Source of the DNA: an uncultured bacterium
GTDB lineage: Bacteria; Cyanobacteriota; Vampirovibrionia; Gastranaerophilales; Gastranaerophilaceae
Direction of reading: 5' to 3'
DNA length: 64,000 nucleotides
NCBI GenBank assembly: GCA_949300515.1
Contig: CASGEP010000003.1
Coordinates: forward strand, 1 to 64,000
Shown here piece after piece: positions 691 through 6,249 of this stretch. The translations under genes and the position numbers were made by a program. Under the pieces are notes generated by a model. It saw only the letters and a program-made list of their open reading frames with translations, was not told the origin of the DNA and made no database searches. How positions within the stretch are numbered: the first letter of the stretch is position 1; each line of letters opens with the position of its first letter.

Positions 691-777
691 TAAACAAATT
701 AATAGTCTTGTGTGCAATATATTTTATTTTTCATCTGTCTAAAATTAATCATCATTTCAAGAGAGGTCAGAGGATTA

Positions 778-2883
778 ATGAAATTATATAAACATATTGT
801 ATGCACACTTGCAGCCCTTGTACTGTTTAACACGCAGGTTTTTGCAAAAAAGACCGTAACACAGCTTCCAAAGCCGAAATATCCCGACTATGCGTATGAA
901 TTTGTCGGGAGAGATAAATTTGAAGGCTTTAATAGAAAAATGTTTGTATTTAACCAAAAATTTAACAAATATGCGCTAAAACCGGCTCATATCGTATGGG
1001 CATCCATTATGCCAAAATACGGGATGGACAGAATTCAGTGCGCATATACAAATATAGAATACCCTAAAAGACTCGTCAGCACTCTTTTACAGAGAGATTT
1101 CAAAGCGGCGGGACATGAAACGCTGAGATTTTTAACAAATACAACTCTGGGGCTTGGCGGCTTGTATGACCCAGCAGACAAATGGTTTAAACTGGAGCCG
1201 CTGAAAGAGGACGTCGCACAGGGGCTTGCAAAATGTAAAATCAAACAAGGTCCGTATCTTGTTTTGCCCTTTATTAGTTCCACTTCGCCGCGCTCGCTTC
1301 TGGGAAGTCTGATTGAATGCCCGCTTGATGCATCAATGTACATCGGAAGCCCGATAACCGCAATGGTAAAAGCGGGTCTGCTCATAAATCGCACATCTTA
1401 CGCGCAGCCCGTGATAAAAATGGTAGAGTCAAATTTTGCAGACCCCTACGACATAGCAAAAAAGCTCTGGGGGCTTGAAAGGTACATAAAAGATAATAAC
1501 TATGACAGAGAAGAAATACTTGAAAACGCGCTTAAAGAGTGCAAAGAACTGACAAAAGTAAACGAAACCCAAAAGTCGCTGAATGTCGGCGAAAAAAAAG
1601 AAACCGCAAGCAATAATCTTATTGTAGATGATGCAATAAAAGGCTATGCATGGTTTGATGACGAAAGAAACAATGTGGATTTGGCTGACAAACAGCTTAT
1701 TGCGGATATTGAACTGAAAAACTTTAACCCGCAGTGCCCCGTAACGGATGCCATGCGAACGGCGCTTTTTGATACCGCGGGACTTAAAAACAACTCAATC
1801 TGGAGCGAATTATCAATCTGGAACAGGTCGTTTGTAAAAAAAATAAAAACATCCTCAATAAACATTGACAAAAACAAAGATGACTACGGGTTCGGCTATA
1901 TTCTGCAAAAAAACAAAAATGCGCCCGTAGTAATTCTCTTTCCCTCAATCGGCGAAGGGGCGTCATCGCACCACAGTATAGTGTTTGCAAAAATGTTTTA
2001 CGACCTAGGCTACAGCGCAATAATGTTTGGCAGCCATTTTCACTGGGAATTTTTAAAGAGCATGCCTGACGGCTTTATCCCCGGAATTCCCTCAACAGAC
2101 ATTGCATATTTGAGAGAAATTACAAAAAAAGCCATAGATGAAATTGAAGAAAAACACGGGTGCAAACTCGGCGACAAAACGGTAATAGGGACGTCTTTCG
2201 GGGCATTTGCCGCACTTTTTCTTGCGGATATGGAATCAAAAGAAAACACACTTAATATCTCAAACTACATTTCGATTAATCCGCCCGTCGAGCTGCTGTA
2301 TGCAATTGATGTAATAGACAAAAACAACGACCGGTGGAAAGAAAACCCAATTGATGTCAAAAAAAGAGTAGCACTAAGCGCTTCTAAGATAATTCAGCTT
2401 GTGGAAAAAAAGAACGAAACAAAAGAAGACGAATTTAGGCTTGATTTACTACCCTTCAGTGAAGATGAAGCAAGGCTTATAACCTGTTTTGTCCTGAGGC
2501 AGAAACTCTCCGATATAGTTTTTACCCTTGAAAACACAAAAACATCAAAACGCACGGATATATACGATAAAATCAATAATATAAGCTATCTTGACTACAT
2601 TAACGACTACATAAAGAAAGACAGCCTCGAAACTCTTGAAGAAATAAACTCCAAAACAAGCCTTTATGCACTCAAGGACTATTTTATAAATAACGAAAAT
2701 TATAAAATTTACCACACCATGGATGATTATCTTATAAACCTGACCCAGCTTAAGGACTTAAGACAGTATGCGGGTGCAAAACTTGTATTATTCGACAGAG
2801 GCTCGCACCTTGGCTACCTTTACAGGGATGAATTTAAAAAGCAGCTCATAAAAGACGTTACAAAAACTAAGAACGATAATTAG
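778..2883 (+). CDS. MlaA (VacJ)-like domain fused to an alpha/beta-hydrolase
   Basis: A 701-residue exported protein. Residues 1-23 form a signal peptide (MKLYKHIV...TQVFA) without a lipobox cysteine. Residues 46-215 match MlaA, the outer-membrane component that removes mislocalised phospholipids; its signature EGFNRKMFVFNQ is at 49-60. Residues 220-370 are a linker. Residues 380-700 look like an alpha/beta-hydrolase: the strand APVVILFPS, the nucleophile elbow GTSFG (Ser473), and a C-terminal DRGSH with a candidate catalytic His677. The start at 778 follows GAGAGG; an upstream in-frame ATG at 712 has no such site and would bury the signal peptide. The two halves suggest capture of a lipid by MlaA and cleavage by the hydrolase, but the substrate is not shown. 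Its last 17 nt overlap the convergent fucosyltransferase gene. Confidence 0.85.
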   Translation: MKLYKHIVCTLAALVLFNTQVFAKKTVTQLPKPKYPDYAYEFVGRDKFEGFNRKMFVFNQKFNKYALKPAHIVWASIMPKYGMDRIQCAYTNIEYPKRLVSTLLQRDFKAAGHETLRFLTNTTLGLGGLYDPADKWFKLEPLKEDVAQGLAKCKIKQGPYLVLPFISSTSPRSLLGSLIECPLDASMYIGSPITAMVKAGLLINRTSYAQPVIKMVESNFADPYDIAKKLWGLERYIKDNNYDREEILENALKECKELTKVNETQKSLNVGEKKETASNNLIVDDAIKGYAWFDDERNNVDLADKQLIADIELKNFNPQCPVTDAMRTALFDTAGLKNNSIWSELSIWNRSFVKKIKTSSINIDKNKDDYGFGYILQKNKNAPVVILFPSIGEGASSHHSIVFAKMFYDLGYSAIMFGSHFHWEFLKSMPDGFIPGIPSTDIAYLREITKKAIDEIEEKHGCKLGDKTVIGTSFGAFAALFLADMESKENTLNISNYISINPPVELLYAIDVIDKNNDRWKENPIDVKKRVALSASKIIQLVEKKNETKEDEFRLDLLPFSEDEARLITCFVLRQKLSDIVFTLENTKTSKRTDIYDKINNISYLDYINDYIKKDSLETLEEINSKTSLYALKDYFINNENYKIYHTMDDYLINLTQLKDLRQYAGAKLVLFDRGSHLGYLYRDEFKKQLIKDVTKTKNDN

Positions 2884-3796
2884 AAAAAATCTCTTTGATT
2901 TTTTTTATACATTTTCTTTGAACAAAGGAATAAGTAAAAAATTCCCCCCTGCTCCAGCCCTTATTTACGTCTTTTCTTAGTATTTTGCCTTTGTTTTTAA
3001 AAATATCGTCAAAAAAACTTATAATCATTTCATCGTTAATTTTTTCATTCAAAACCTTTGGTGCATTGAGCATTTTTAAATATAATTCATCATTATTATC
3101 AATCTCTATAACTCTCTCCACAAGCTCATCAAGGTTTTTGCAGTCATTTGCAAAAATAAAAGCCTCAGGATTAAATTCTTCTTTTGCAAGCGGGTCGCCC
3201 CAGTATATGGGCACTGTCGCAGCAATAAACGCATCACAAATTTTCTCTGTTATATACCCGGGGGCACAGGAGTTTTCAAAAGCAATCGTAAATTTAAAAT
3301 TATTCAGATAAGAAATTTTATCGCGTACTCTTTTTCCTGTGTTATTTAAAAGAGCGCCCGAAGAATTTATTTTCTTATATTTTGAAAGCTTTTTAAAAAA
3401 ATCAATCCTTATTTCATCACAATATGCGCCGTTAGAATATAAAAAACTGCAAAACTCTCTGTTCTGGGGATTATCGGGCATTTGCGCCCGATTTCTTAAC
3501 TTGGAGAGAAAATAATACACGGGCACCCTTAAATATCTTTTGCCAAAGTCCAGATAATCAAACCCGATAGCATAGTCATATACATTAAAATCCGCAGTAA
3601 GGTTTTCTCCGCTGTAAAAAATCCTCGGGCAGGAATATTTTTCATACTCCCTTCCAAAACAAGAGCACAGCACAAAGTCGGGGTCTTTTGAATCTTCAAC
3701 AATTTCGTATTTATTCTTTAGAATATTTACAAAAAAATCATTTTCAAATGTATGTTCTTTCCAAAAATCGCAAAAATGTATTTTTATTTTTTCCAT
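2867..3796 (-). CDS. Glycosyltransferase family 10 (alpha-fucosyltransferase-like)
   Basis: 309 residues. The C-terminal half has the conserved GT10 signature at residues 169-202, including FENSCAPGYITEKICDAF and PIYWGDP, which forms the GDP-fucose binding region in alpha-1,3/1,4-fucosyltransferases such as Helicobacter FucT. The N-terminal acceptor domain is divergent, as is usual. No membrane segment or heptad tail is seen, so it is probably a cytoplasmic or peripheral enzyme decorating a surface glycan. It lies 9 nt downstream of the 2-hydroxyacid dehydrogenase gene in the same direction and overlaps the MlaA-hydrolase gene tail to tail. Sugar donor and acceptor cannot be read from sequence alone. 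Confidence 0.85.
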   Translation of the reverse strand: MEKIKIHFCDFWKEHTFENDFFVNILKNKYEIVEDSKDPDFVLCSCFGREYEKYSCPRIFYSGENLTADFNVYDYAIGFDYLDFGKRYLRVPVYYFLSKLRNRAQMPDNPQNREFCSFLYSNGAYCDEIRIDFFKKLSKYKKINSSGALLNNTGKRVRDKISYLNNFKFTIAFENSCAPGYITEKICDAFIAATVPIYWGDPLAKEEFNPEAFIFANDCKNLDELVERVIEIDNNDELYLKMLNAPKVLNEKINDEMIISFFDDIFKNKGKILRKDVNKGWSRGEFFTYSFVQRKCIKKIKEIFSNYRS

Positions 3797-4843: not shown

Positions 4844-6249
4844 ATGAAAAGCGAATTTTTTAAACGAACAAAAATCGTTGCCACGGTGGGTCCTGCCGTT
4901 GACAGTGAAGAAGCCATTTGCGAACTTATAAAAGCGGGCGCAAACGTTTTCAGGCTCAATACTTCCCATGGAACAATGGAAGATCACAGGGCAAAATTTG
5001 AAATGATAAGAAGCGCTGCAAACAAAATGAACACATACAGCGCGATTATGATAGACCTGCAGGGTCCAAAAATAAGAGTCGGAAACCTCAGAGAGGAAAT
5101 AGACCTCAAAAACGGACAAAAAGTTGTATTTGAACACAAAAACGAACAGGATGACACAGATATCATCCCCGTTGACTACGAAGGCATTGCAAAAGACGTT
5201 TCAAAAGGCTCCAGAATTTTGCTTGATGACGGTAAAATTGCCGCAACCGTCGATGAAGTTAAAGACAATAAAGTCTATGCGACAATCACAAACGGCGGAA
5301 TTTTAAAATCAAGAAAAGGTCTTAACATCCCCGGCTCAACGGCTTCTCTTGCGGCAGTCACCCAAAAAGACACGGAATACATAAAATTTGCGGTCAATAT
5401 GGGAGCGGACTATATCGCACTCTCTTTTGTAAGACAAAAAGAGGACGTTTTGCTTGCAAAAAAATATATACACGACAACTTGAAAAACCGCAGGCAATTG
5501 AAAATTTGAAAGAAATAATTGCCGTTGCCGATTGCATAATGGTTGCCCGCGGCGATTTGGGAATTGAGCTTTCGCCCGTCGAAGTTCCCATATGCCAAAA
5601 GTTAATCATCAGCGAATGCAATAAGCAGAAAAAGCCCGTAATTGTCGCAACTCAAATGCTTGAGTCGATGATTTACGAACCCATCCCGACAAGGGCGGAA
5701 GCATCGGATGTAGCAAACGCCATAATCGACGGGGCAGACGCAGTTATGCTGTCGGGCGAAACATCGGTCGGAAAATTTGCGACAGAGGCGGTGCAAACAA
5801 TGTCAAAAATCGCCAGAGAAACTGAATCCAGCGTATTTTACAAATTTAATAAAGACTTTGAAATGTCTGAGGATATGGCGCTTACAAGGCAGGCGATAGT
5901 TTTTGGCGCGGATAAAATGCTTAAATACGTAAATGCAAAGGCTGTTCTCAGTTTTTCACACTTTGGCTATTCAACACGCCTGATGTCAAAATTAAAACCC
6001 TCGGTACCGATTATCTTAGTATCAGATATGGAGGAAACCTGCCGTAAAATGTCGCTTGTGTGGGGCGTTTACTCATTCCGCAAAAAATGGGGCGGTATTT
6101 TGGATCAAAACCTGCTTTTGAGAATTGACGAATTTTTAATAAATGAAGTAGGTCTTAAAAAAGGCGATTATGTAGTAATTACCGCATCAGCTCCAAACCT
6201 GATTACAGGCAGAACAAACTTCGTAAGGGTACACAAAATAGGCACATAA
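4844..6249 (+). pseudogene. pyk: Pyruvate kinase gene with internal deletion/frameshift
   Basis: Two consecutive reading frames together make one pyruvate kinase. The first (4844-5509) holds the substrate and potassium region (KIVATVGPA, FRLNTSHG, DLQGPKIRVG) and the B domain up to LSFVRQKEDVLLAKKYIHDN. The second (in frame from 5482) resumes with EKPQAIENLKEIIAVAD, MVARGDLGIE, TRAEASDVANAIIDGADAVM and a complete C-terminal domain. The usual segment between them, ending in IIAK-I/IE with the catalytic lysine (Lys220 in E. coli PykF), is absent at about 5480. A deletion of about 28 nt accounts for both the missing residues and the frame change. As given, the gene cannot make an active enzyme. 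An assembly error is equally possible. An RBS (GGAGA) precedes the ATG. Confidence 0.85.

Follow-up and report, generated by a model that had tools for sequence, protein, structure and literature searches.

We propose that a single gene of a Candidatus Gastranaerophilales species (Vampirovibrionia/Melainabacteria, phylum Cyanobacteriota) probably codes for an MlaZ-MlaY fusion, in which an MlaA-type channel of the outer membrane has its own phospholipase; the protein would dispose of outer-leaflet phospholipids without MlaC. The gene occupies positions 778 to 2883 of the window, by which we mean the entire 64,000-nucleotide stretch of DNA that was analysed. As read from its sequence, the product is a secreted protein that consists of a signal peptide, an MlaA domain, a variable linker, and an alpha/beta-hydrolase. 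The earlier note on this DNA had likewise described an MlaA fused to an alpha/beta-hydrolase, a reading now borne out by the PF04333 match, homology to MlaY, and a complete catalytic triad.

Architecture and identity of the two domains

The gene and its parts are as follows.

769..773, plus strand: Shine-Dalgarno-like AGAGG, 4 bases 5' of the ATG at 778 (read from the sequence)
778..2883, plus strand: fused MlaA/MlaZ-MlaY-like gene, 701 aa (ORF reading and Pfam; orthologues in the order)
778..846, plus strand: SPI-type signal peptide, residues 1-23, without a lipobox (sequence reading; orthologues alike)
910..1470, plus strand: MlaA domain, residues 45-231 (PF04333, E = 1.7e-41; Foldseek to MlaA structures)
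1570..1689, plus strand: variable, low-confidence linker, residues 265-304 (pLDDT < 50; low identity to distant relatives)
1690..2880, plus strand: MlaY-like alpha/beta-hydrolase domain, residues 305-701 (hhalign to MlaY, domain model, Foldseek)
2188..2202, plus strand: nucleophile elbow GTSFG (GxSxG), residues 471-475, with the Ser473 codon at 2194-2196 (invariant; aligns with MlaY Ser187)
2725..2727, plus strand: catalytic acid Asp650 (invariant in 30/30; aligns with MlaY Asp388)
2806..2808, plus strand: catalytic His677, within GSHLG (invariant in 30/30; aligns with MlaY His415)

The start codon is kept in relatives. The h-region of the signal peptide ends in VFA/KK, in agreement with the earlier note, which had remarked on the absence of a lipobox, unlike E. 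coli MlaA. A lipobox-like string occurs in merely 3 of 78 related fusions and is not conserved. A lipoprotein signal is usual but not universal in the MlaA family and hence does not define it. The MlaA domain itself is recognized with 142.5 bits against a curated PF04333 cut-off of 25, and the predicted structure has the MlaA fold: the N-terminal part of the full-length model (mean pLDDT 82, pTM 0.82; disordered at the linker) matches MlaA in OmpC-MlaA and related structures, with a TMt of 0.80 for 8i8r_D and 0.84 for 5nuo_F.

Two further genes of the window deserve mention. A glycosyltransferase family 10 gene (alpha-1,3-fucosyltransferase; positions 2867-3796, minus strand; FucT_N E = 2.4e-29) converges on the fusion gene, with which it shares 17 bases at the 3' end of the latter; only the closest relatives have this neighbour too. 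Downstream, pyruvate kinase (4844-6249, plus strand) is divided into two ORFs, 4844-5509 and 5506-6249, and is a single ORF of about 480-530 aa in relatives. The window copy is without residues that relatives have around NSNIPVIAK and changes frame near 5490; the split reflects either a genuine lesion or a fault of the assembly.

For the hydrolase, general resources gave only weak, unspecific matches (NCBIfam and Pfam; Abhydrolase_1 stayed below its cut-off, at 18.2 versus 25.8 bits over residues 464-681), and the sequence search of the PDB found no meaningful relatives. A tblastn search of plasmid records with the domain returned alpha/beta hydrolases of P. aeruginosa and Fusobacterium vincentii (E of about 1e-13), and in both organisms the hydrolase gene lies immediately 5' of an MlaA-family gene. 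The same arrangement is found in two Skermanella species. In P. aeruginosa the two genes correspond to MlaY/MlaZ, and direct comparison of the domain with MlaY gave an hhalign probability of 99.3% (E = 2.5e-20, 306 columns) and a BLASTP value of 8e-20 at 22% identity. These sequence relationships identify the domain as a homologue of Pseudomonas MlaY, although with a mere 22% identity its substrate may have shifted. Association with an MlaA-family protein, a feature of the MlaY family, takes the form of adjacent genes elsewhere and of one chain here.

The loci that carry the separate genes have features of their own. The P. aeruginosa MlaZ copy (L180:6093-6896) is annotated as a "VacJ family lipoprotein" yet is without a lipobox cysteine; the adjacent MlaY does carry a lipobox-like string, LGC. 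In Skermanella (L187 and L188), the mlaY-mlaZ pair is flanked by an RND transporter gene on one side and a TamB-domain gene on the other, which may hint at a link of lipid removal with a proposed lipid-delivery protein.

The catalytic residues agree with this assignment. The active site of MlaY is given as Ser187/Asp388/His415 in a passage of PMC11977310 that quotes Guest et al. 2023, and Ser473, Asp650, and His677 of the fusion protein align with these three residues. Each is invariant in 30 of 30 orthologues, and the three columns are also invariant in a 60-row alignment; the Fusobacterium homologue has a Glu under Asp650, with an Asp adjoining. The intact elbow at Ser473 and the candidate His677 of the earlier note are thus confirmed, and Asp650, which it had missed, supplies the acid that completes the triad.

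When modelled alone (pLDDT 87, pTM 0.89), the hydrolase domain matches alpha/beta hydrolases at moderate TM scores (about 0.4-0.65), among them ABHD6, monoglyceride lipases, and 6i8w, a membrane phospholipase A. The C-terminal part of the full-length model likewise matches esterases and lipases. Alpha/beta-hydrolase folds include acyltransferases, some of which are among the Foldseek matches, and such an enzyme would move an acyl chain from an outer-leaflet phospholipid to another acceptor. However, no relative found is closer in sequence than the MlaY lipase, and we regard this reading as very improbable.

A passage of PMC11977310 calls MlaY homologous to PldA. Our comparisons, which are of sequences, instead support MlaY as an alpha/beta hydrolase. 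We rejected kinship of the fused hydrolase with PldA, which belongs to a different family; the PldA profile (PF02253) matched in 0 of 97 family genomes, a profile miss that is no proof of absence.

Distribution and conservation of the fusion

The earlier note had suggested a search for the same fusion in related genomes, allowing that it might occur only here. The fusion is instead widespread, being present in 36 of 78 relatives and, at the level of the order, in 178 of 383 genomes, with matches confined to two families (f1 and f7). Across the phylum, the hydrolase profile finds it in 94 of 386 genomes (one of them a fragment) and PF04333 matches in 93 of 386. The 93 PF04333 frames are 650 to 827 aa long save one of 380 aa (G311), whose MlaA and hydrolase halves lie on different contigs, split by a contig end. 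None of the PF04333 matches in the 386 phylum genomes is an MlaA without the hydrolase. Phage records gave a single match, MlaA only, in a Pseudomonas phage record.

In each of 81 loci examined, the fusion is one ORF, and its neighbours vary. The linker shares 5-29% identity with distant relatives versus 43-77% for both domains, and comparison with the nearest relative gives dN/dS values of 0.01 for MlaA, 0.15 for the linker, and 0.03 for the hydrolase, ratios that are rough as dS is near saturation. Both domains are under purifying selection. That two genes were joined by chance read-through or by an assembly error was rejected, as dozens of independent assemblies contain the same single ORF and conserve both domains; we put the likelihood of such a join at practically nil.

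Presence of the gene is patchy within genera. It is absent, for example, from a genome of the same genus (G003) and from one of genus g7 (G082), which suggests repeated loss or exchange. About half of the order's genomes are without the gene, and it is thus dispensable. This pattern is what an accessory function would show, and the hosts are gut bacteria by lineage; the channel could accordingly be imagined to take up external or host-gut lipids from which the hydrolase frees fatty acids, serving nutrition and not asymmetry. We consider this unlikely, as the MlaY precedent is one of asymmetry maintenance and no family-wide neighbour points to lipid uptake: in the 81 loci, genes adjoining the fusion are shared within individual lineages only, none of them family-wide.

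Envelope setting and proposed function

LpxC was found in 60 of 60 family genomes, and the family therefore makes lipid A/LPS. A survey (PMC4040986) describes diderm envelopes with SomA/B-like porins in the lineage. MlaC (PF05494) was detected in 0 of 95 genomes and LolA in merely 2 of 60, weakly, profile misses that are in neither case proof of absence. This setting fits an MlaA for which a lipid anchor and MlaC as acceptor are both unnecessary. In a survey of 1,083 genomes, MlaABC was totally absent from diderm Terrabacteria (PMC10665443); the Gastranaerophilales fusion family is an exception to this for MlaA. An MlaA-family protein is thereby shown in Terrabacteria, in a lineage where LolA is all but undetected.

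The MlaD and MlaE families are kept in 97 of 97 family genomes and include MCE ORFs of about 450 aa. In the genome studied here (G000), the MCE domain is matched three times and MlaE is encoded twice: an MCE ORF of roughly 450 aa adjoins an MlaE gene (contig C13), a shorter MCE ORF is on C7, and the second MlaE gene is on C25. The MlaA domain might feed MCE/MlaE transporters in the retrograde direction, perhaps via the long MCE protein in place of MlaC, as an elongated MlaD may bridge the envelope (PMC10665443); the hydrolase would then have a side role, such as clearing lysolipids. However, MCE/MlaE genes are also present in genomes without the fusion, their presence does not track it, they have no operon linkage with it, and MlaC, the known acceptor of lipid from MlaA, was not detected. 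We judge this arrangement to be unlikely.

We favour the disposal of outer-leaflet phospholipids by a fused MlaZ-MlaY. Passages in PMC12569750 and PMC11131202 propose that in P. aeruginosa MlaZ extracts misplaced phospholipids and passes them to MlaY for degradation. By analogy, the two parts of the fusion most likely do the same job on one chain. The MlaA domain, probably partnered by a porin, would reside in the outer membrane and let stray phospholipids of the outer leaflet through towards the periplasmic side, where the tethered hydrolase would deacylate them. LPS-phospholipid asymmetry would be kept in this way without an MlaC shuttle, and the products would be recycled via other routes. 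The coupling of removal and degradation that the earlier note had put forward gains independent support from the MlaY homology, with the activity itself predicted from sequence; the idea is not new, because MlaZ/MlaY exists as a two-protein pathway.

A stronger version can be entertained only tentatively, namely, that in Terrabacterial diderms the protein is a self-contained, MlaC- and Lol-independent asymmetry machine in which the mouth of the hydrolase is docked on the MlaA pore and the lipid never leaves the protein. If true, a phospholipid of the outer leaflet would reach the active site within one protein. As a single-gene system, the fusion permits direct testing of channel-to-enzyme transfer.

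Comparison with known systems

The earlier note had set the fusion against E. coli MlaA-OmpC plus PldA. An overlapping role in disposing of outer-leaflet phospholipids has indeed been proposed for PldA/OMPLA, which is from an unrelated family, but the right comparison is MlaZ/MlaY. With the E. coli MlaA-MlaC-MlaFEDB system the protein shares the MlaA fold of its N-terminal domain, and the host genome encodes MlaD and MlaE families; it differs in having no lipobox and an extra hydrolase domain, and in that no MlaC was found. Veillonella, likewise a Terrabacterial diderm without MlaC, has an elongated MlaD bridge but, unlike the fusion hosts, no MlaA at all (PMC10665443).

The system that resembles the fusion most is MlaZ/MlaY of P. 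aeruginosa (PA3239/PA3238), which likewise pairs an MlaA-family protein with an alpha/beta-hydrolase lipase, MlaY, that has the same Ser-Asp-His triad, and in which the MlaZ copy is also without a lipobox. There the parts are two proteins, encoded in the order mlaY then mlaZ; here they form one polypeptide, with the MlaA domain first and the hydrolase, at about 22% identity to MlaY, second, in a host without detectable MlaC. The MlaA-first order is the reverse of that in the four separate pairs seen, and therefore the loss of a single stop codon would not make the fusion. The MlaA domains of the fusions, when placed in a small tree, make up a single clade of their own on a long branch and do not group with MlaZ, although such a grouping (with the MlaZ proteins of P. 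aeruginosa, Fusobacterium, and Skermanella) was not rejected (AU p = 0.2).

The literature searched contained no earlier report of an MlaA-hydrolase fusion, although the original MlaY paper may mention fusions. Cooperation between MlaZ and MlaY has so far been based mainly on genetics in one genus, and the occurrence of the two as a natural fusion argues strongly that channels of the MlaZ type and MlaY lipases work as partners. What is new, relative to the two-protein MlaZ/MlaY precedent, is the single chain, the reversed order, and the occurrence within Terrabacteria.
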